This document shows, piece after piece, positions 32,264-43,649 of a stretch of 64,000 nt of DNA. Position 1 is the stretch's first letter. Each line of letters starts with the position of its first letter. The stretch is from Spirochaetota bacterium. GTDB taxonomy: Bacteria > Spirochaetota > Spirochaetia > Treponematales > Rectinemataceae. Location: contig JAJUIB010000014.1 of the NCBI GenBank assembly GCA_029265615.1, forward strand, positions 1-64,000. Reading direction: 5' to 3'. Below the pieces are notes generated by a model that was not told where the DNA came from, ran no database searches, and saw only the letters and a program-made list of their open reading frames with translations. The position numbers and the translations under genes are program-made.

Positions 32264-32812
32264 TCACTTGCCCGGCTTAGGCGGGGCAGGAGGGGGCGGA
32301 CCCGTAGCGGGGAGGAGCTCGCTGGGCTTGCCGCCCTCCCCACGATAGCGATCGACGGAGATGATGAGACGCATAGGCGCCCGTCCAGCAGGATCTCGAC
32401 CGAGGGGAAAGAAAATCACGGGCTCGCCCAGCTTAAGGGCGACACTGTCGACCGTCGTACGGTAGGAAAGCTCCCCCTCGCCCCGACGGTACCAGATTTG
32501 GCCTTGCGAGACGAGAACGAGGCCGCCCTTGCCGTTATCGAAGGGGGTGAGCTGGACGAGGATGACGACATTGCTGCCCACAAGCTTGACGCTCACCGGA
32601 TTGCCGGGAACGGTGTAGCGGACACTGTCGGAAGCCCAGGCGGCAGACGCGGGACCCTCCTCAAGCCGGGCGGCAATCGATACGGCGAGGGCGTGTTCCT
32701 TGAAAAACTCGTAGGGCGGCTCTTCCTGGGCAGCGGGACCGCGCCCGAAGCCGAGGGCGGCCGCATATACGACAGCCGCCCACAGTCCCCGCACCTGCGT
32801 AGGATGCGTCAC
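32264..32812 (-). CDS. Exported protein of unknown function in ECF operon
   Basis: A 182-residue product whose GTG overlaps the anti-sigma stop as GTGA. A hydrophobic stretch (about 9-22), cleavable after GPAAQ, suggests export. The mature part is beta-rich (VSVKLVGSNVVILVQLTPF, GGLVLVSQGQIWYRRGEGELSY, GEPVIFFPLGRD) and ends in a Pro-rich tail (PPPPAPPKPGK). No family was recognised. Tight coupling to the anti-sigma factor points to a role in signal sensing or as an envelope target of the sigma factor. Confidence 0.65.
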   Translation of the reverse strand: MTHPTQVRGLWAAVVYAAALGFGRGPAAQEEPPYEFFKEHALAVSIAARLEEGPASAAWASDSVRYTVPGNPVSVKLVGSNVVILVQLTPFDNGKGGLVLVSQGQIWYRRGEGELSYRTTVDSVALKLGEPVIFFPLGRDPAGRAPMRLIISVDRYRGEGGKPSELLPATGPPPPAPPKPGK

Positions 32813-33522
32813 TGGGCGCCGCCTTCCGCCGCGCCATCGGCAGTGCCGGCGGCATCGCCCGCGGCGCCGGGATCGGTGGATGCCTCCACCGCCGCACCGG
32901 CTGCGGCGGGAGTAGCCGGCCGGCTTGCGGGACTTACGGGGCCATAGTCCGCGGCGCGCACGATAAACGGTTTGCCGCTTGCGGCGAAGGTGGCTTCGCG
33001 CGGTAGCTCGATGGTGAGATTCACCTGCGCATCGCGCGATTCAAGGTAGCGGATGAGCGCTTCCATGCTCGTGCGCTCCGTGGCCTGGGGCGCTATTTCC
33101 GCAACCGCGAGCGTTTGCACGGGAACCCGGGCGGGCGCAAGATAGGTGCGAAGCGCAAACGCCGCCGACAGAGCGAGGAGTACAAGGGCGGCCGCGGCGA
33201 AGGGGAGCGGCACCAGCACGCGGCGGCTGAAAACGCCACCCACAACGGGGGGCTTTGCGGTGTGAATTCCCAAAGACGCGCCATCGCGGTCTTCCTCAAG
33301 GTTACCGTCAAGGCGTTCGCCAAGGCGGGCGGCGATGCGCTCGACGGTCGCCTGCTCCTCAAAGGAGGGGGCGGCCTTAAGGCGCTCGCTGAGCGACCGA
33401 AATCCTGCGAGCGTAGCGGCACAGGAAGGGCAGGAGGCGACATGGCTGGCAAGGCGCTCGTTCCAGGGCGAAGGAACCTCGCCATCGGCGAACGCGGAGA
33501 GGAGTTCGCGATCAGGACACAT
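32809..33522 (-). CDS. Anti-sigma factor with zinc-binding N-terminus
   Basis: A 237-residue partner of the ECF sigma factor encoded directly upstream. Residues 1-40 form a ZAS-type (zf-HC2) domain: CPDRELLSAFADGEVP .. HVASCPSC with the His-x3-Cys-x2-Cys ligands. A membrane segment lies near residues 106-124. The C-terminal part would be periplasmic and ends in a long Ala/Gly/Pro-rich tail (about 195-237). It overlaps the sigma gene by 11 bp and the next exported-protein gene by 4 bp, so the three are translated as a set. Confidence 0.87.
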   Translation of the reverse strand: MCPDRELLSAFADGEVPSPWNERLASHVASCPSCAATLAGFRSLSERLKAAPSFEEQATVERIAARLGERLDGNLEEDRDGASLGIHTAKPPVVGGVFSRRVLVPLPFAAAALVLLALSAAFALRTYLAPARVPVQTLAVAEIAPQATERTSMEALIRYLESRDAQVNLTIELPREATFAASGKPFIVRAADYGPVSPASRPATPAAAGAAVEASTDPGAAGDAAGTADGAAEGGAQ

Positions 33523-34072
33523 GCTTTCCCCCCTTCTCCATCAGGGCGAGCAGGGCCTCGCGGGCGCGGAAGGCTCGCACCTTCACATTGCCCTCGGTGA
33601 TTCCGAGGACCCGTCCGATCTCCTTGTAGCTCATCCCGCCGTACTCCTTGAGGATCAGAACCGACTTGAGCTTTTCAGGCAGGCGGTCGAGCATGAACTT
33701 TACCTCCGCCTCCGACTCGCCGCGGATAAGCTCGGCGTCGGCCCCCTCGGTCTCGGCGCGCTCGCCGCGCCACCAACGCTCATAGGCGCGGGTTTCACGC
33801 CCCTTGCGTTTCGCATAGTTGAGCGCCGCATTCTTCACGACCCGGATAAGCCAGAACTTGGCATCGTCCAAGGTGGCGAAGGGGATGCGCTTTTCGATGA
33901 GGCGGATAAAGGCATCATGGACAACATCTTCAGCCGCCTCCTCGGTCCCCGTGATTCGATAGGCGACACGCACGAGCATCGGTGCGGTCGCGTCGTAGAG
34001 GCGCCTGAGCGCGCGCTCGTCGGGAGGGCCATCGTTAGAAAACAAACCGTATACCGCCTGGTTACGCGTCAC
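33512..34072 (-). CDS. ECF-type RNA polymerase sigma factor
   Basis: A 186-residue alternative sigma factor with region 2 (about 20-95; YRITGTEEAAEDVVHDAFIRL, FWLIRVVKNAALNYAKR) and region 4 (about 125-180; LPEKLKSVLILKEYGGMSYKEIGRVLGITEGNVKVRAFRAR, the recognition helix). The GTG start lies 9 bp after the cysS stop. Together with the zinc anti-sigma factor it probably forms an envelope-stress or redox-responsive switch controlling exported proteins such as those downstream. No self-promoter was identified. Confidence 0.92.
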   Translation of the reverse strand: MTRNQAVYGLFSNDGPPDERALRRLYDATAPMLVRVAYRITGTEEAAEDVVHDAFIRLIEKRIPFATLDDAKFWLIRVVKNAALNYAKRKGRETRAYERWWRGERAETEGADAELIRGESEAEVKFMLDRLPEKLKSVLILKEYGGMSYKEIGRVLGITEGNVKVRAFRAREALLALMEKGGKHVS

Positions 34073-34081
34073 GAAGCGCGC

Positions 34082-35509
34082 TTACGCGCGCTTCCACTTC
34101 GTGCCCGAAGGACCATCTTCAAGCAGAATGCCCTCCGCCTTAAGCGCTTCGCGGATCGCATCCGCCTGCGCAAAGTCCTTTGCCTTTTTGGCGGCGGCGC
34201 GTTCGGCGATAAGTGCCTCGATACGCGCGGCGAGCGCAGGGTCGACTTCCGCCACAGCGGGCCGCTCCGTATCACGGAGTCTTAAGCCGAGCACCTGATC
34301 CATGTCGAAGGCCACGGCGAGAGCCTCGGCGGGGGGAACTTCCGCGTCGCGAAGAAGTCCCCAGAGCGCTGCAAGCGCGCGCGGCGTTGCAAAATCCTCG
34401 CAGACGGCCTCGGCAAAGGCCTCGCGATACGCGCGCGCCGCAGGGCCGAGGGCGGCAAGTGCTGCAGCCTCGGGCGCCTTGTCCCGCAAAGCGAGAATAC
34501 GCTCGGAAAGGGATTTCCGCGCCGACGCGGCAGAATCGAGCCCCTCAAAGGAAAACTGAAGCTGGGAGCGATAATGCGCACCGAGGAGGAAGTAGCGGTA
34601 ATCAAGGGCATCGTAGCCACGATCGACCAAGGTCTGGATGGTGAGGAATCCTCCCGCAGACTTGGACATCTTGCCCTTGTCGAGAACGAGGAACTCGTTG
34701 TGCATCCAGTAGTTCACCCACTTCCTACCGGTTGCCGCCTCGGACTGGGCGATCTCGTTCGTGTGGTGGATCGGAATGTGGTCGATGCCCCCCGCATGGA
34801 TGTCAAACTGTTCACCCAGGTACTTCATACTCATTGCGGAGCACTCAATGTGCCAGCCGGGATAGCCGCGCCCCCAGGGGCTGTCCCACAACATTGCCTG
34901 GTTCTCGAACTTGGACTTCGTGAACCACAGGGCGAAGTCGGCGGGGTTGCGCTTGTTGGGGTCGACCTCGACGCGCGCGCCCGCCTTGAGGTCCTCGAGC
35001 TTGAGACGGGCGAGCTCGCCATAGCTCGGAAACTTGGTGACATCGAAATAGAGGTTGCCCCCCGCGGCGTAGGTGTAGCCCTTTTCCTCGATGCGCCGTA
35101 TGAGCGCAATCATCTCGGGAATGTGCTCGGTCGCCTTGCAGACGATGTCGGGGCGCTCGATATTGAGGCGCGCCGTGTCACGAAAAAAGGCCTCGGTGTA
35201 AAACTCGGCAATTTCGTAGACAGTTTTGCCACGCTCGTGGGCGCGCTTCACCATCTTGTCCTCGCCCGTATCCGCGTCGCCCGAAAGATGGCCGACATCG
35301 GTGATGTTCATCACGTGAGTCACCTCATAGCCGAGCCAGCGGAGGGCACGGCAGACCGTGTCATGGGTGACGTAGGCGCGCATGTTGCCAATATGGGCGT
35401 AATCGTAAACAGTCGGGCCGCAGCCGTAAAAGCCGACCTTACCGGGAACGAGGGGGCGAAACTCCACAAGCTCCCGTCCGAGAGTGTTGAAAACGCGGAG
35501 CGTCGGCAT
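34082..35509 (-). CDS. cysS: Cysteinyl-tRNA synthetase
   Basis: Charges tRNA-Cys. The 475 residues show the zinc Cys in [18 protein letters not shown] (HIGH-type motif HIGN), the second zinc region [28 protein letters not shown] and the KMSKS motif in [10 protein letters not shown]. Two adjacent ATGs occur; the second (35509) is correctly spaced from AAGGAGG. The C-terminal DALR-like region is short but complete. It is the first gene of a transcript that continues into the ECF sigma system, an unexpected pairing. Confidence 0.95.
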
Positions 35510-35601
35510 CATGTCCTCCTTAAAACGGCGCGCGCAGGCCTGACAGAGCCGCCTGAGGGCGCGCCCCGCAGGCGGCCTTGCGCCCCGGCCAGCCGGCCGG
35601 C

Positions 35602-35607
35602 TATGAT
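35602..35607 (+). promoter_or_regulatory. -10 box of murB promoter, leaderless type
   Basis: TTGCGC (35578-35583), 18 bp, TATGAT (35602-35607), then 6 nt to the ATG at 35614, with no Shine-Dalgarno. The 104-bp gap to cysS also holds a hairpin (GCCGCCTG, 35548-35555, with CAGGCGGC, 35569-35576), which lies in the cysS leader. Confidence 0.55.
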
Positions 35608-35613
35608 CGGGCC

Positions 35614-36564
35614 ATGCCAACACTACGGGACTTCCTCGAAAAAATCAATATAAGCGCAAAGATCGCGTACGACGAACCCATGGCCGCGCACACCAGTTTC
35701 CACATCGGTGGCCCCGCCGACGCCTATGTGCTGCCGCAGGACGAGCGCTCGGCCCTCGTACTCGTCCGCGCCGCGCGCGCCGAGGGCATCCCCCTGTTCA
35801 CCCTCGGTGGCGGCGCAAACCTCCTCGTCGGCGACCGCGGCATCAGAGGCATTGTCCTCGACACCGCGAAGCTCGACAGTGTCGCGGAGGAGCCTGAGGA
35901 AGACGGCTCGGGCGCGGTCATCCTCGCGGCGGGGGCAGGGCTCGCCGTCGACCGGCTCTGCGAGGAGGCACTTTCGCGCGCGCTCACGGGCCTCGAGAAC
36001 TTCGCAGGCCTTCCCGGCACGGTTGGCGGGGCCGTCTACATGAACGCACGGTGCTACGAGTTCGAGGCCGCCGACCGCCTTGCATGGGTGGAGGCCGCGA
36101 GTCCGGCCCCCGAGGCTCCGGTCGAACGGCGGCCGATCGACCGCGCCGAATGGGCCTACAAGTGCTCGCCGTACCAGGACGACGGCCCCGCCCGCGGTTC
36201 CCTCATCCTCCGCGCGGCATTCCGGCTAACGCGCGGCGATCCCGCCGCGATCGAAGCCGTCATGCGCGCGCGTCGGGCCGACCGCGAGGCGAAAGGCCAC
36301 TACCGCCTCCCCTCTGCGGGTTCGGTGTTCAAGAACGACCGCGCCCTCGGCCGCCCCAGCGGCAAGATCCTCGACGAACTCGGTCTCCGCGGACACAGGA
36401 TGGGCGGCGCGATGGTGTCGGAGTGGCATGCGAACATCTTCGTCAACACAGGCGGCGCCACCGCGCGCGACATGCTCGCCCTCATCGAATTCGCGCAAAG
36501 CGAGGCCCGAACGCGGCTCGGCATCGAGCTTGAACCGGAGGTCATCTTCGCCGGGGATTTCTAG
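35614..36564 (+). CDS. murB: UDP-N-acetylenolpyruvoylglucosamine reductase
   Basis: A FAD/NADPH enzyme making UDP-MurNAc for peptidoglycan. The 316 residues are of the type II form, with FAD-binding segments [16 protein letters not shown] (26-41) and [11 protein letters not shown] (64-74), [34 protein letters not shown] with the catalytic Ser, and a C-terminal [13 protein letters not shown]. The start at 35614 was chosen because a promoter -10 ends 6 nt before it. It is divergent from cysS. Confidence 0.95.
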
Positions 36565-36620: not shown

Positions 36621-39146
36621 ATGTCCTTTCCACTCCACGCCACCGATACGCTCGGAGCGTTCTTCGCGGTGCTCGTCGCGACCCTTCTCGTACCGCTCGC
36701 GGCGGAAAAGCTCAGGCTTCCGGTTCTCGCGGCGCTCGCGCTCGCCGGAGCACTCGTCGGACCGCGCGGCCTCGGCATCGTCAATCCGGAGGGTGCAGTC
36801 GCAACACTGGGAGAACTCGGGCTCCTCTACGCGTTCTTTCTTGCGGGCGCTGAGCTCGCCCCCGTCGCGCTCCGGAAAGGCCGCGCGGGACAGCGCGCCG
36901 CCGCCCTCATTTCCTTCGCACTCCCCTTCGGCGCAGCCTTCGCGGCGGGGCGCTCGGGGCTCGGCGCTACGCCCCAGACCGCCATCCTCATCGCCACGGC
37001 CTTCGCAGTGCGAAGCACACGCCCCTATCCCTGCGTGGCGCGACTCGGCATCGCGCGCTCTGAGGCGGCCGGAGCCGCTGCCGAGGGTGCAAGTCTATCC
37101 ACCGCGCTTTCAATCGCAGTCATGACCGCGACGATCCTCGTAACCACGCATCCTCAGGCGCACGCAGAGTCGCGCTCGCTCGCGGGATTCCTCAACGCGC
37201 TCGGTCCGACGGTGCGACTCGCGACGGCCCTGGCTCTCGCCCTCGCAATGTACGTCGCGCTCCCCGCCCTCGCGGCGCGATTTTTCAAAGGCGTGCGTCC
37301 CGACGGCGTCATCGAGTTCATCTTTGTTCTCGCTCTCGCCTTTTTTTGCGCCTTCGCCGCCGACCGCATCGGCATGCCGGCCGCCGCAGGAGCATTTCTC
37401 GCAGGCGGGATGCTCCGCCGCTTCGTTCCGGAGAGTTCCATGCTCATGGGGAGGCTGCGTTTCGCAGGCGAAAGCCTCTTCGTCCCCTTCTTTCTCGTCT
37501 ACGCAGGTATGAGCGCCGATCTAGCCCCCCTCTTCGCCGACGAGCGGCGAATCATCGCGCTCGGCGCCGCGTTCGCGCTCCTTTTCGCCGTGCGCCTTGC
37601 CGCGGCGTTCGCGACAAAGATCGTCCTCAGGCTCGATCCGGACGAGGCGGGCCTGGTCTTCGGCCTTTCGCTCAACCAAGGCGCGGCGGCCCTTGGCGTC
37701 CTCTTCGTGGGGCTCAGGCTCGGCCTTGTCTCGGAAGCCCTCGCAGGGGGCGCTCTCCTCCTCCTCGTTGCGACGGGGCTTTTCGGCCCCCTCGTTGCAA
37801 AAAAAACTGGGGGGCGTCTTGCCCTCCGCTCGGGCACCGCGAGCTTGCGCCCGGAAGGCGAGCCCGACCGCGTGCTCGTCGCTCTCGGCAACCCCGCTGC
37901 GCTCGAACGCCTCGTGGAGCTCGCCTTCCTCCTCCGCGGTCCCGACGAGGAGGAGGCCGTCTACCCCGTTGCGGTCGTCCCCGAATCGGGCGACACCGAG
38001 GAGGAGCTCGCGCGCGCGGAAAACCTCCTTGCGCGGGCCATGGTGCAAGCGACGCGCGCGGGCGTGCCGATACGGCCGCAGACCCGCGTGGCAGTTAACG
38101 TGCCCGAAGGCATCCTCCAGGCCGCGGAGGAGAACCGCACCCGCACCCTCGTCCTCGGCTGGAATCGGGCTCCCCGCCTCTCGAGCTCGTTTTTCGGCAG
38201 CGTCATCGACCGGGTCCTCCAGGGGGGGCGCGGCCTCGTCGTCGTCGCGCGCGTCGCGAAAGGCGGAGGCAAGGCGTTTTCGCGCGTCTCACTCGTCCTT
38301 CCACCGCTTGCCGAGCGGCATCCGGGATTTGCGCGGGGCATCGCGGCGCTCTCGAGCCTAATCCGGCGAAGCGGCGCCCACCTCACGATTTATGCGCAGT
38401 CGCCCCACGCAGAGGCAGCGCGGATCGCCGCCTCCCGCCTTCGCGCGCGGGGCCAGACACAGGTCGTTGAACTTGCTTCGTGGAAGTCGGTGACAGGCAA
38501 GATTCGCTCGCAGGGATCCCCACATTCCGCCTTTGTCATATTCTGTTCGCGCCCAGGCGGCGTCGCCTGGCACCCCGCCGTCGAAAAGCTTCCCCACCTC
38601 CTTGGCGAGGAGTTTCCCGAGGCCCCGCTCCTCTTATTTTACCTCCCCGAGGAACTTGACGCCGCGGCCCCTACCGTAGCGGGAGCCGCGGCCCCCGGCG
38701 CGGAAGAGGCCGTTCCGCCCAACCTCTTCGAGGCCGCGTGCGGGTCGGGACGCGTGCTTGTCGCGATGCGCGAAACAGCCATTGCCGACGGCGTCCGCGG
38801 GCTCCTTGCGCGCGCCTTCGGCCAGGACCGCCGCCTCCTTGGGCGGCTCGCGGCCACCTTTACGGAAATTGCCCAAAAAGCGCCCATCGAGCTCGAGCCC
38901 GGCGTCGTCCTCCTCCATGCGCATGTTGCCGAGGTGGAAGAACCGGTCGTCCTTTTCGGCGCCCGTCCCGAGGGTTTCCGCATCCTCGCCCTGGGCAAGC
39001 CGGCCCGGGTCCTCGTCGTACTCTGCGCCCCCGAAAGTCAGCCCCCCGAAGCGCATCTTGCCGCGCTTGGCGAGATCGCGCGGCTCTTCAGCAAGGAAGG
39101 TCTTGCTGCGCGCCTCCTTGCCGCGCGTAGCCTCGACGATCTGTAG
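36621..39146 (+). CDS. CPA2 antiporter - USP - PTS EIIA-like fusion
   Basis: An 841-residue three-part protein. Residues 1-400 form a cation/proton antiporter (KefB/NapA type) with about 12 membrane segments (AAEKLRLPVLAALALAGALVGPRG, FLAGAELAP, MPAAAGAFLAGGMLRR, FVPFFLVYAGM). Residues about 415-545 look like a universal stress protein domain (RVLVALGNPAALERL .. RTLVLGWN). The C-terminal 130 residues resemble a fructose/Ntr-type EIIA domain: GVVLLHAHV puts His766 at the phospho-acceptor position. The ion and its control are unknown; a phosphorylation- or nucleotide-gated antiporter is inferred. The usual ion-binding Asp region reads AVRSTRPYP. Confidence 0.75.
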   Translation: MSFPLHATDTLGAFFAVLVATLLVPLAAEKLRLPVLAALALAGALVGPRGLGIVNPEGAVATLGELGLLYAFFLAGAELAPVALRKGRAGQRAAALISFALPFGAAFAAGRSGLGATPQTAILIATAFAVRSTRPYPCVARLGIARSEAAGAAAEGASLSTALSIAVMTATILVTTHPQAHAESRSLAGFLNALGPTVRLATALALALAMYVALPALAARFFKGVRPDGVIEFIFVLALAFFCAFAADRIGMPAAAGAFLAGGMLRRFVPESSMLMGRLRFAGESLFVPFFLVYAGMSADLAPLFADERRIIALGAAFALLFAVRLAAAFATKIVLRLDPDEAGLVFGLSLNQGAAALGVLFVGLRLGLVSEALAGGALLLLVATGLFGPLVAKKTGGRLALRSGTASLRPEGEPDRVLVALGNPAALERLVELAFLLRGPDEEEAVYPVAVVPESGDTEEELARAENLLARAMVQATRAGVPIRPQTRVAVNVPEGILQAAEENRTRTLVLGWNRAPRLSSSFFGSVIDRVLQGGRGLVVVARVAKGGGKAFSRVSLVLPPLAERHPGFARGIAALSSLIRRSGAHLTIYAQSPHAEAARIAASRLRARGQTQVVELASWKSVTGKIRSQGSPHSAFVIFCSRPGGVAWHPAVEKLPHLLGEEFPEAPLLLFYLPEELDAAAPTVAGAAAPGAEEAVPPNLFEAACGSGRVLVAMRETAIADGVRGLLARAFGQDRRLLGRLAATFTEIAQKAPIELEPGVVLLHAHVAEVEEPVVLFGARPEGFRILALGKPARVLVVLCAPESQPPEAHLAALGEIARLFSKEGLAARLLAARSLDDL

Positions 39147-39227: not shown

Positions 39228-42200
39228 TTAATTCTTGTAGAGGATGAATTCCACCCGGCGGTTCTTCCAGCGGTTTTCGGCATCCTTGAAGTCGACGACC
39301 GGCGCACTCGAACCACGGCCCGTCACCGAAAGACGCCGCGGATCGACACCATTCTCGACAAGGAGCCGCCGTACGAGCTCGGCACGGCCGGTCGAGAGCG
39401 GAATGAGCTCGCGCGTTTCCTCCTCGGCGATTCGCGATGCGGATGCACCGATGATCTTGGCCTCGCTGTTCGCATGCCCCTCGATGCCGATCTTGTACTC
39501 CCGGAAGCGATTGAGTATCTGCGCGATGCGCTTTATAACCCGGTCGTTGTTCGCAAGCTTTTCGGCTTCAAGCCCATTGAAATCGGCGGCCCCTGCGCGG
39601 AAGACGATCGACGGCACCTTGATCTTGAGCCGGTCGCCGTCGCGGATCACGAGCACATCGACGGCGATCGTGCCGCTTGTCCGCGTGACGTTCCCCAGCG
39701 CATCCTTGATCGTAAAGTAGTAGGGATAGTCGGTCGCCGCCTCGACAAGCTCGCCCTTCGCGGAACGGCCGTCCCAGGCGATCTGCGATGCTGGCCTGCC
39801 CGTGCCGCCCCAGGCGATAAAGAGCCTTTCCTTGGGCCGCGAGCCCGGAGCGGCGCCCTCGACCACCTGGGTTTCATCGATCTCGAAACGCCACTCGGCG
39901 ATCTCGCTCGCATCGGACACCGAGATGGCGATGGAAAGCTCGTCGTCGACCCCATCGTTGTCGGGGCTGAAGAACTCGGGAGTAATGCGCACCGCGACCC
40001 TCGGCCCCTCGGTGTCAACGAGAAGCGCGCCGGTGCGCGCCTCGGCGCGGTCGCCCTTTAGGTACTCGACGGCGAAAAAGCCCGTGAACTCGCCCTGCAC
40101 GACGGCCCCCGAGGCGTCCTTGCCATCCCAGTCGATCCGCGCGGGGATGTCGCCACCCTTCGCGCCAAAGACGCGAAGCTCGCGCCCCGTCTTGTCGAGA
40201 ACGGCAATGCGCCATGACTCGATGCCTTCGCGGAGGTTGACAATCGGCGAGAAGAAGAGCGTATCGCGGAAGCCGTCGCCGTTGGGCGAGATCGCGCTTT
40301 CCGAAGCGGTGAGGAAGACTTGAACCGCTCGCGCGTCGACGCGGATATTCGCAACCTGGGCCTTGAACGAGTTGCCCGCCGCGTCGGTCGAAGCGACCTC
40401 GTAGCGATAGAGGCCGTCGGGCACGCGGTTGCCCGCCTCGTCGCTTCCATCCCAGGAGAAGTCCCGGGCCTGGCCCTTCCAGGAGAAGCTCCGCAGGGGA
40501 GGCTCGCCCGCGCGCGAGCCTTCGGCGAAAATCCTGCCCTCCCAATCATCGCCCGGGATTGATTTCTGGAAGAAGGACACGGTGTCATTGCGTCCGTCGC
40601 CGTTCGGTGAAAAGAGAAGCGGTTCTGCCTTAAGCTCGATGAAGGGCGCCGTGGTGTCCAGTACAAAAGCCGCGGTCGAAGCTTCGACCGTGTCACCGTT
40701 GAGATACCGGGCCTTGAGGCGGGCGAGATAGCGTCCATCGGGGGCGGCGGACGTGGCATCATCGCGGCCATCCCAGACGAATGCCGTGGGCATGGCCCGG
40801 TCGCCCTTCCAGCTGCGGAGCACGCGACCTGCCGCAAGGGGCGGCGCATCGACCGCTTCGATGCCAAGTTCGTAGCCGACAAGCTGCCCGAGGGCGCTAA
40901 GCTGCGGCGTGATTTTAAGCTGGTCCCGCTGACCGTCGCCGTTGGGGCTGAAGGCGCGCATGTCGACGGACAGCCGCGCCGCCTTTTCCTCGGTGTCGAG
41001 CGACACTGAGGCGGGCGCAGAGGCGAAAGCGTTGCCCGCTCGGTCGGTCGAGGACAAGCGGTAGAGATATACCCCGTCCGGCACCGGTTTGCCCGAGTCA
41101 TCTGCCCCGTCCCACTCCACTTCGCCATCCGGCTCGGGGCCGAACGTGTACGTGCGGACGACCTGGCCGTCTGAGCCGATTATCTCACCGATCCAGCGCT
41201 CCTCGCGCGAACCCCGTTGCGTGAAGCGAACGAGGTTCTGCCCCTCGCGGCCCGCCGGGTTGAAGGCGGCGCGATCCGCGCTCACCGTCGCCGATGGCGG
41301 CGTCACGTCGAGGAGGAAGAGCGGCGAATAGGAGCGCGGCGTGTAGCCATTCACATAGGTGACGGAAAGTTCGGCCTGGTAGCTTCCCTCGGGGAGCGGC
41401 TTCCCATCGGCGCCCGAACCGTCGAATGCTAGGCGCTCGGGAAGACTGGACGCATCGGATCCCGTCCGCGCCCAGCGTTCGCGTTTATCCTTGTCGAGAA
41501 TGGCGATTTTCCAGCCGCTCAAGCCCGTCCGTACGGGCACGCTCGGCGACAGAACAACGACATCCTTCCGCCCATCGCCGTTTGGACTGAAGGCAGAAAG
41601 ATCGATGGCGATGTTGACGGGCGGCTGTTGGGTGTTGACGACGATGTTGTCCACACGGCGGATGACCGAGTTGCCCGCACGGTCGGCCGCGGCGAGCGTC
41701 AGTGTGTAGACGCCATCGGGGAGGACGGAGCCAGAATCGGACCTTCCATCCCAGACAAAATCCTCAGGCCGCCCCGCGCGATAATCGACGGAGCGCAGCA
41801 CCGCACCGCCAGAGTCCAGCACCCGGAGTTGCCACAGGTCCTCGGAGCTCCCTGAAATCTTGAACCGGAGGCTGTCCTTGTTGCCATCGCCATCCGGACT
41901 GAAAATCTTCGAGCTTTCCGCCGCCTCGAGGCTCGCCTCGGGGGCTTTGGTATCGACGATAACCGCAAAGGGGCCGACGCGGCCGACGTTGCCGTTGTCA
42001 TCGACCGCCTCGATCGCGATAGCATAGCGGCCGTCCGGCACGATCGACCCGTCATCCGCACGGCCGTTCCAGCTGAGCACAGGAGGCACCGCAACGCCCT
42101 TTTTCACATAAAGAAGACGCTTCCACAGCCCCTTCAAATCCTGGGTCTCAGGCCGCGTCTCTTTATTTGCGATCGCACGGACGGGCTCGCCTGAGGCATC

Positions 42201-43463
42201 AGCGCCGCGATAGACGTAGAGCGTATAGCCAAGGAGATAGCGCTCGTCGGTGATCGACACGGGGATGTCGATCTGATCCTGGACACCGTTGGCGTTCGGC
42301 GCGAGATAGAACAGCGCGGGTCCCGCCGCCTCGGATTCTGCGCCAAGGGGCGGGCCGGCAAGGGCGATGCGGTCAGCCTCAGGTTCGTTCGGATAGGGCG
42401 TTCCGGGGAACCGGGCCTCGATGCGTGGCGGTTTTTTGTCGAGAAGGCCGAGGCGGGCTGAAACGCCGCCGCCTGCCGCCCACAGGGAACCGTAGAGGGG
42501 CGCCACGGCGAGGCTCGGCTTAAGCTCGCTCCTGTCCCAGCCGCGTTTCGATATGAACGACTCGTCGGCCTTGCGTTCCACGGGTATCGTCGCCGCAAGG
42601 ACGACGGAAGGGATGAGGCTCCGCGAAGCCCCCGCGATGAGCTCGGCGACCGAGAAGTCCCACGAACTCCGGAGCGACACCAGCTCGCGGAAGGAAAGGC
42701 TTAGGCCGAGGCCGAAGGCCAGGTCCTGAAAGCTCGGCGCAGACAGGTCGACTCCAAGACCGAATTTCCACTCGGGGCTCCGGAGGAGGAGGGCACGGGC
42801 GCCGACGCTTGGCGTAAAGGGCGAGGGATAGGCGCTCGTCGCGCCCCCCGCAAGCCCTGTCGCGGGGCTGGGCGTCGAATAGCCCTTGCCGATGCCGGCA
42901 AGCACGCCACCCCAGCGGAGGTCCTTCAGTATGCCCCGGTCGCCGAGCAGGTGGACAAATCCGAGATCGAGACCGAGCCCCCAACCGAAGCCGCCGTTCG
43001 AACCGAGGGCGAGGCCGAGGCCCGCACCAACATAGAAGTTGGAGAACAGGTCCTTGGCGATCGTGCCGCGGGCCTCGAAGTAGGTGCCAAGGGGGAGGCT
43101 CGTCATCGTGTCAGGCGTCGAAACAAGGCGCAGGCCTGCGCCGAGGACGCCGAAGGGCCGCGGCACAGAAATGCCGAGCGAAGCTGCACCGCCAAAGCCC
43201 TGGCCAGCGCTCCCGAAGTCGCTCAAACCGACAAAGCTCGCGTCGAGGACGGGCCGCTGCTGGGCGGCGCTCGCCGCCGGATTGAGCCGATCGGCCGCAG
43301 GGGAGTCAAGGGCGGTCACGGTAAAGCCATAGCCCAGAGCCTCCGCCGAGGCGAGCGAGGGTAGCATGTTCCCCCCCGCCGGGGGATCGTAGGCAAAGGC
43401 CGGAAAGCCTGAGACGAGCGCGATAAGACTCAGAGCCACAACGCGAACGACGTGCCGTTTCAC
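39228..43463 (-). CDS. Giant outer-membrane protein: beta-barrel, FlgD-Ig repeats, OmpA
   Basis: The 1411-residue exported protein starts with GTG; AAGGAGG (43470-43476) is 6 nt before it. A signal peptide ends at GFPAFA near residue 24. The next 350 residues are Gly/Leu-rich with alternating patterns, probably an outer-membrane barrel (PorV/UPF0164-like). Then come at least six FlgD-like Ig repeats marked by FSPNGDGxxD and WDGxxxxGxxxPDGxY; one repeat reads FNPAGREGQ and has lost the acidic motif. The last 110 residues are an OmpA/MotB domain (GIEGHANSEA, GRAELVRRLLVENGVDPRRLSVTGRGS, NRRVEF) that should hold peptidoglycan. It may link the outer membrane to the wall or the periplasmic flagella zone. 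Confidence 0.83.
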   Translation of the reverse strand: MKRHVVRVVALSLIALVSGFPAFAYDPPAGGNMLPSLASAEALGYGFTVTALDSPAADRLNPAASAAQQRPVLDASFVGLSDFGSAGQGFGGAASLGISVPRPFGVLGAGLRLVSTPDTMTSLPLGTYFEARGTIAKDLFSNFYVGAGLGLALGSNGGFGWGLGLDLGFVHLLGDRGILKDLRWGGVLAGIGKGYSTPSPATGLAGGATSAYPSPFTPSVGARALLLRSPEWKFGLGVDLSAPSFQDLAFGLGLSLSFRELVSLRSSWDFSVAELIAGASRSLIPSVVLAATIPVERKADESFISKRGWDRSELKPSLAVAPLYGSLWAAGGGVSARLGLLDKKPPRIEARFPGTPYPNEPEADRIALAGPPLGAESEAAGPALFYLAPNANGVQDQIDIPVSITDERYLLGYTLYVYRGADASGEPVRAIANKETRPETQDLKGLWKRLLYVKKGVAVPPVLSWNGRADDGSIVPDGRYAIAIEAVDDNGNVGRVGPFAVIVDTKAPEASLEAAESSKIFSPDGDGNKDSLRFKISGSSEDLWQLRVLDSGGAVLRSVDYRAGRPEDFVWDGRSDSGSVLPDGVYTLTLAAADRAGNSVIRRVDNIVVNTQQPPVNIAIDLSAFSPNGDGRKDVVVLSPSVPVRTGLSGWKIAILDKDKRERWARTGSDASSLPERLAFDGSGADGKPLPEGSYQAELSVTYVNGYTPRSYSPLFLLDVTPPSATVSADRAAFNPAGREGQNLVRFTQRGSREERWIGEIIGSDGQVVRTYTFGPEPDGEVEWDGADDSGKPVPDGVYLYRLSSTDRAGNAFASAPASVSLDTEEKAARLSVDMRAFSPNGDGQRDQLKITPQLSALGQLVGYELGIEAVDAPPLAAGRVLRSWKGDRAMPTAFVWDGRDDATSAAPDGRYLARLKARYLNGDTVEASTAAFVLDTTAPFIELKAEPLLFSPNGDGRNDTVSFFQKSIPGDDWEGRIFAEGSRAGEPPLRSFSWKGQARDFSWDGSDEAGNRVPDGLYRYEVASTDAAGNSFKAQVANIRVDARAVQVFLTASESAISPNGDGFRDTLFFSPIVNLREGIESWRIAVLDKTGRELRVFGAKGGDIPARIDWDGKDASGAVVQGEFTGFFAVEYLKGDRAEARTGALLVDTEGPRVAVRITPEFFSPDNDGVDDELSIAISVSDASEIAEWRFEIDETQVVEGAAPGSRPKERLFIAWGGTGRPASQIAWDGRSAKGELVEAATDYPYYFTIKDALGNVTRTSGTIAVDVLVIRDGDRLKIKVPSIVFRAGAADFNGLEAEKLANNDRVIKRIAQILNRFREYKIGIEGHANSEAKIIGASASRIAEEETRELIPLSTGRAELVRRLLVENGVDPRRLSVTGRGSSAPVVDFKDAENRWKNRRVEFILYKN

Positions 43464-43649
43464 AGGCATCCTCCTTGAGGCAATGCTCGATCGTCGACAA
43501 AACACGCGAGGCGCGTCAAAAAGCCCCGCATCAATAAACTGTCACAGTGCAAAAAAGTTACCGCGGGCCTTGCACGCCGTAGCCCCCCTGTGCCACGCAC
43601 GGCGCCAGAGCCCGCGCTGTTAGTATACCCCATATCGCCCAGGCTTACC

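Follow-up and report, generated by a model that had tools for sequence, protein, structure and literature searches.

The gene examined here raises the question of whether a membrane protein that has the fold of a cation/proton antiporter, lacks the acidic residue of its ion site and ends in an EIIA domain is an ordinary pump, or whether it may be a metabolic sensor/regulator instead. The gene lies in a stretch of 64,000 nucleotides from the genome of a Spirochaetota bacterium, referred to below as the window, and its product is referred to as the fusion protein.

Domain organization of the fusion protein

According to the structure models, the chain is composed of four parts, namely a CPA2-fold membrane domain, a USP domain, a USP-like domain and an EIIA domain (Table 1). 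Three of them were recognized by Pfam above the cut-offs: Na_H_Exchanger at residues 19-392 (E 2.4e-32, 112.7 bits, above the gathering score), Usp at residues 417-537 (E 3.5e-9, 37.8 bits, above the gathering score) and PTS_EIIA_2 at residues 726-840 (E 6.4e-9, 36.4 bits versus a cut-off of 27). This agrees with the sequence-only reading made earlier of this DNA, which had placed a CPA2-type antiporter, a USP-like domain and a C-terminal EIIA-type domain in one chain; the second USP-like domain (residues ~548-675) and the conservation of the architecture through the whole family go beyond it. The NCBIfam CPA2 subfamily model scored below its cut-off (70.7 versus 238.3 bits).

The AlphaFold2 model of the full-length protein reached a mean pLDDT of 83.1 and a pTM of 0.53, which indicates that the individual domains are well modeled but their mutual arrangement is not. 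The membrane domain shares its fold with the CPA2 proteins NapA (TMt 0.82 with 5bz2; Z 41.4, rmsd 3.6, 383 residues aligned) and KefC (Z 30.4). KefC also has a cytoplasmic regulatory C-terminus, but this is an RCK domain, where the fusion protein has USP and EIIA domains instead. Foldseek with the full-length model also returned NKCC/KCC cotransporters at an rmsd of 17-28; these matches are regarded as poor and perhaps involve the cytoplasmic domains only.

The tandem USP 3ab8 is matched by the whole-chain model, and the second USP-like domain (548-674) matches the single USPs 3fg9 and 1jmv (Z 10.7). The ATP-binding motif of USPs, G-x2-G-x9-G-S/T, is present in three of the 53 aligned proteins and absent from the other 50, the window protein counted among the latter. 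The sequence-only reading had tied ion flux to nucleotide level; given that the motif is absent, this link is left without sequence support, and with the ion-site Asp gone (see below) even ordinary ion flux is doubtful. Ligands other than ATP are known for USP domains, c-di-AMP in Staphylococcus aureus KdpD being an example (available text of PMC4686210), and the USPs here may likewise bind one. KdpD resembles the fusion protein in that its USP domain belongs to a membrane protein related to K+, but it is a sensor kinase.

Table 1. Positions in the window of the fusion gene, its domains, its key residues and murB.
Feature	Position	Strand	Basis
murB	35614..36564	+	Pfam; 56 bases upstream of the fusion gene, same strand
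Whole gene, 841 aa, single unbroken frame from ATG 36621 to stop 39146: CPA2-fold membrane domain, tandem USP-like domains, EIIA	36621..39146	+	ORF, Pfam, structure model
Na_H_Exchanger (CPA2-like), residues 19-392	36675..37796	+	Pfam; NapA structural match
Arg131, interrupted TM4 helix	37011..37013	+	Alignment; His in 27/30 relatives outside the family
Thr161, at the essential transport Asp position (NapA Asp157, KefC Asp156, CPA motif position 7)	37101..37103	+	Alignments; motif from the available text of PMC6181914
Arg325, CPA motif position 8	37593..37595	+	Alignment; Lys in 30/30 relatives outside the family
First USP domain, residues 417-537, without ATP-binding motif (GWNRAPRLSSSFFGS)	37869..38231	+	Pfam; motif check
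Second USP-like domain, residues ~548-675	38262..38645	+	Fold only, no Pfam match
EIIA domain, PtsN/fructose-mannitol fold, residues 697-841	38709..39143	+	Pfam; 3urr match
His766, predicted phospho-acceptor	38916..38918	+	Invariant, 34/34
His812, second conserved EIIA histidine	39054..39056	+	Invariant, 34/34

Distribution of the architecture

A match to the protein (E 1e-3) was found in 27 of the 30 genomes of the window's family, most of them full length and a few covering the EIIA part only (e.g., in G001 and G015). At E 1e-10, a match was obtained in 37 of 296 genomes drawn from Spirochaetota. Some matches extend into the EIIA, and many, of ~700 aa, end before it. These ~700-aa CPA2-USP proteins (among L049-L068) can be aligned with the fusion protein over ~670 residues of the membrane and USP regions, but they have no EIIA and murB is not beside their genes. 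A total of 22 loci came from the search of named species genomes: most belong to uncultured Spirochaetota, one belongs to Rectinema subterraneum, and the two Gemmatimonadota loci encode proteins with all three Pfam domains. These two copies (L082 and L084) carry Glu at the transport Asp position and a canonical 'LPHVR' EIIA motif. Partial or second pieces (L036-L040) were left out of all alignments, and L072-L090 were not recounted because they come mostly from the same genomes as L012-L034.

Pfam was run on 26 of the 34 EIIA-bearing proteins, and Na_H_Exchanger was found in all 26, EIIA_2 in 25 and Usp in 23, which does not bear out the rarity of the three-domain chain that the sequence-only reading had implied. 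That the chain is unique is ruled out by the copies in the family, in more distant Spirochaetota and in Gemmatimonadota. Nearly all relatives have an intact reading frame, as the window does. The three-domain combination is an established protein architecture, kept through the whole family. Within the open-licence literature, no paper describing this fusion architecture was found.

The EIIA domain and the PTS of the genome

The C-terminus adopts the EIIA fold in the model, with residues 697-841 matching PtsN 3urr at Z 16.2 and rmsd 2.7 over 140 aligned residues; the separate model of residues 548-841 has a pLDDT of 89.6. This latter model, mainly through its EIIA part, also matches the cytoplasmic domain of the band 3/SLC4 anion exchanger (Z ~10.5, 143 residues, 22% identity), which is another EIIA-like fold joined to a transporter. 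The phospho-acceptor position had been assigned to His766 from the letters, and the alignment leads to the same residue: it is the first His of 'LLHAH' and takes the position of the His in the 'PHxR' motif of canonical EIIAs. Both His766 and His812 are His in every one of the 34 EIIA-bearing aligned sequences. An EIIA paralog within the genome has 'FPHGR'.

The search for phosphotransfer genes that had been suggested for this genome returned one HPr (107.5 bits, carrying 'GIHARPA'), an EI-type protein (384.1 bits, 581-aa frame), an HPr kinase adjoining HPr and six EIIA_2 domains, the window's included. No EIIC of PF02378, the sole EIIC family covered by the profile search, was found. Across the 30 genomes of the family, HPr is present in all 30 and PF02378 in three. 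The EIIA domain of the fusion is thus provided with predicted phosphocarrier partners in the genome, and the PTS, with EI, HPr and HPr kinase present and the PF02378 EIIC missing, looks mostly regulatory. Of the two outcomes that would have spoken against the sequence-only reading, a C-terminus unlike EIIA and a genome lacking PTS phosphotransfer proteins, neither was encountered. At another locus of the genome (G000:C15, L004), EIIA_2 shares its frame with a DNA-binding (excisionase-like) start, as judged by eye from the translation, which is a further sign of a regulatory PTS. The same genome also encodes, at G000:C16:69896-71899 (L069, P0002), a protein with a CPA2 domain followed by EIIA_2, as in the fusion; unlike the fusion, it has an intact 'IDD' Asp-Asp site, the canonical 'FPHGR' and no Usp match.

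Genomic context

murB lies directly upstream of the fusion gene in 21 of the 24 family loci; L018 and L027 are without murB, and L034 ends too soon. Outside the family, murB is near none of the 28 loci, within up to 1.5 kb of flank. Scans for standard sigma-70 promoters and for terminators in the region of murB and the fusion gene did not exceed the level seen in shuffles, so that it is the spacing and the conserved order that suggest that the two genes probably form one operon. The co-location may also reflect stable gene order only, which is plausible because cysS and the sigma-factor genes are also retained there. In the window, positions 32809-36564 hold a zf-HC2 anti-sigma-like gene, an ECF sigma factor and cysS, all on the minus strand, followed by murB, and then by the fusion gene, on the plus strand; this order recurs across much of the family (corresponding positions in L072-L090). 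On the other side, positions 39228-43505 (minus strand) encode an outer-membrane-type protein of 1425 aa, which carries FlgD-Ig/CHU_C-like repeats and has an OmpA domain at its C-terminus, and the gene of this OmpA-type protein is conserved beside the fusion gene. For EIIANtr with MurA and peptidoglycan, nothing relevant was found in the open-licence literature.

The ion site of the membrane domain

According to the available text of PMC6181914, 94% of CPAs carry an Asp at position 7 of the CPA motif, and its essential role has been demonstrated repeatedly. KefC Asp156 and NapA Asp157 are the residues at this position, and the KefC mutant D156N has no bound K+ density (available text of PMC11150392). 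The fusion protein differs from both at this point: the Lys or Arg of position 8 is found as Arg325, and the Asp of position 7 is replaced by Thr161. The sequence-only reading had already noted that the usual Asp/Ser pattern of the ion site is lacking, and the alignments agree that the Asp is gone. With phmmer, the Asp-Asp pair of NapA 4bwz falls opposite Ser160-Thr161 and KefC Asp156 falls four residues further on, opposite Val, while in the family alignment the Asp of the relatives' 'GGTIITD' shares its column with Thr161. No acidic residue of the window protein stands at the Asp position in any of these alignments (NapA, KefC, family), and none is found in its TM5 core; Glu155 is one to two helical turns from the site. 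The site is surrounded by the basic residues Arg131, Arg134 and Arg325, of which Arg134, too, lies in the TM4 break; L012 also has an Arg at the same column of this break.

In the 53-protein alignment, the Asp is kept in 10 of the 34 EIIA-bearing proteins, that is, in two of the 25 members of the window's family (L013 and L016) and in eight of the nine EIIA-bearing relatives outside it, and also in 15 of the 19 aligned relatives without EIIA, the ~700-aa CPA2-USP proteins. The remaining family members vary at this column (T, E, G, N, R, K, S, P or V) or are gapped there. The Glu is that of L012 (the nearest relative, from the same genus), L014 and L027, and might still bind a proton or a cation. 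The loss is therefore not family-wide, given that L013 and L016 have the Asp and these three the Glu. Among the 22 family members on the tree, five have Glu or Asp at the site, five others have Arg or Lys, and seven have a gap, the TM5 alignment being unsure in the more divergent ones. In the subgroup formed by L026, L029-L032 and L034, the TM4-TM5 stretch is shortened and the Asp column is a gap.

Tree and shift of constraint

The tree was built by a quick method, with SH-aLRT support only, from 52 rows and without the TM4-TM5 columns. L025 (membrane part poorly aligned) and L028 and L033 (relatives of L024) were excluded from the tree, identity and dN/dS sets, and L082 and L084 were added to the tree set, giving the 52 rows; at the Asp column, the three excluded proteins show P, R and R, and all three carry both EIIA histidines. 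The family sits in a part of the tree where the Asp is mostly absent, and the branches of L027 and L058 are long and of unsure placement. On this tree, the change between Asp and not-Asp takes at least five steps, and the presence of the EIIA histidines takes one.

In the window's subgroup (8 rows), the membrane domain and the EIIA have mean pairwise identities of 0.42 and 0.63, respectively. Of two further family subgroups (6 rows each), one has 0.49 and 0.63 and the other 0.56 and 0.73, versus 0.55 and 0.25 for eight relatives that bear an EIIA but lie outside the family. For single pairs, the values are 0.84 and 0.76 for L013/L016, which kept the Asp, and 0.48 and 0.73 for the window protein and L012. 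The dN/dS values, in the same order, are 0.477 and 0.187 for the window protein and L012 (rough, since dS is near 1), 0.137 and 0.051 for L030/L031 (Asp lost), 0.165 and 0.077 for L031/L032, and 0.369 and 0.317 for L014/L015. They are 0.152 and 0.303 for L013/L016 and 0.098 and 0.612 for L041/L042, both with the Asp kept, and 0.212 and 0.221 for the Gemmatimonadota pair, which has Glu. Nine pairs were tried, of which L047/L048 and L019/L020 were saturated, and the dN/dS of the membrane domain is below 0.5 in every computable pair. The constraint is therefore reversed: in proteins that have lost the Asp, the membrane domain is less constrained than the EIIA, although selection still acts on it.

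Does the membrane domain still transport?

Taken with the regulatory appearance of the PTS, these observations are read here as those of a PTS-driven, non-antiporting membrane regulator with a degenerate CPA2 domain, to which about an even chance is given (a probability of roughly 0.5).

A still-working monovalent-cation/proton exchanger with an unusual ion site, in which EIIA phosphorylation acts as a switch in cis as PtsN does on YcgO in trans, is possible but rather doubtful. The full NapA-like fold of the membrane domain favors it, as does the purifying selection, which indicates that this domain does something, possibly transport; Glu or Asp at the site of five of the 22 family members on the tree, the same-genus L012 included, points the same way. 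There is also a precedent in Escherichia coli, where PtsN in its unphosphorylated state binds to the antiporter YcgO and inhibits it (available text of PMC11808508), which likewise brings a PtsN-type EIIA together with a cation/proton antiporter-type membrane protein. In that system, however, the membrane protein is of the CPA1 type, the EIIA is a separate chain and the transporter is active, whereas here the EIIA is fused, two USP domains lie between and the ion site is degenerate. The activation of MurB by K+ (available text of PMC3689657) would suit a K+ connection and would give an exchanger a reason to adjoin murB. What argues against exchange is that the TM5 core of the window protein holds no acidic residue and its site is ringed by the three arginines, that the membrane domain evolves faster than the EIIA in the Asp-less pairs, and that the Asp is reported as essential in the available texts of PMC6181914 and PMC11150392.

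It is unlikely that the substrate has changed, the loss of Asp and gain of Arg giving anion carriage or an uncoupled path under the control of EIIA. Arg131 and Arg134 in the TM4 break, the Arg of L012 at the same column and the Arg or Lys at the Asp column of five other family members on the tree would fit such a change, but the letters at that column vary (T, E, G, N, R, K, S) and form no conserved new site, which is more like relaxation. Gene decay, with the EIIA alone mattering as a stray phosphate acceptor, would account for a fast-evolving membrane domain that has lost its key residue, but it is very improbable and, like an artefact, is rejected. The frame is open in the window and nearly all relatives, 27 of the 30 family genomes contain a match, which is generally full length and has the same location next to murB, and the dN/dS values lie well under 1 (below 0.5 for the membrane domain).

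Proposed mechanism and biological meaning

If the fusion is the non-antiporting regulator favored here, phosphate would pass from PEP to EI, to HPr and to His766 of the EIIA, all parts of this route being encoded in the genome. The two USP-like domains would join the EIIA to the membrane domain and, being without the ATP motif, are probably a dimerising or docking linker. The CPA2 domain of the window's lineage has, as the alignments show, lost the cation-binding, proton-carrying Asp of CPA transporters. It would most likely carry out no ordinary cation/H+ antiport, and may have been retained as an anchor, gate or sensor with a state that EIIA phosphorylation reads or sets. The CPA2-EIIA protein of the same genome, with its intact 'IDD', may fulfil the role of the lost site instead. 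The location directly behind murB suggests an output that would bear on cell-wall precursor synthesis, either directly via MurB or via local K+, this being the weakest step of the scheme.

A fuller version of this reading is offered tentatively. In it, the protein would be a pseudo-transporter, in which a CPA2 antiporter of the spirochaete lineage was turned into a membrane receptor of the regulatory PTS, ion/proton exchange was abandoned, the EIIA phospho-site came under the strongest constraint, and a PEP/HPr signal is passed to cell-wall precursor synthesis from the murB operon.

The control of K+ transport by the PTS through PtsN is known between separate chains, and here the same logic would operate within one chain. 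Natural versions of the ion site with Asp, Glu, Asn, Gly, Thr or Arg occur among the relatives, and all of them retain the two EIIA histidines. The transition from transporter to receptor thereby becomes directly testable. In a family whose PTS is mostly without a PF02378 permease, the antiporter-like fusion is a candidate end point of the phosphate relay, with the link to murB as its possible output.
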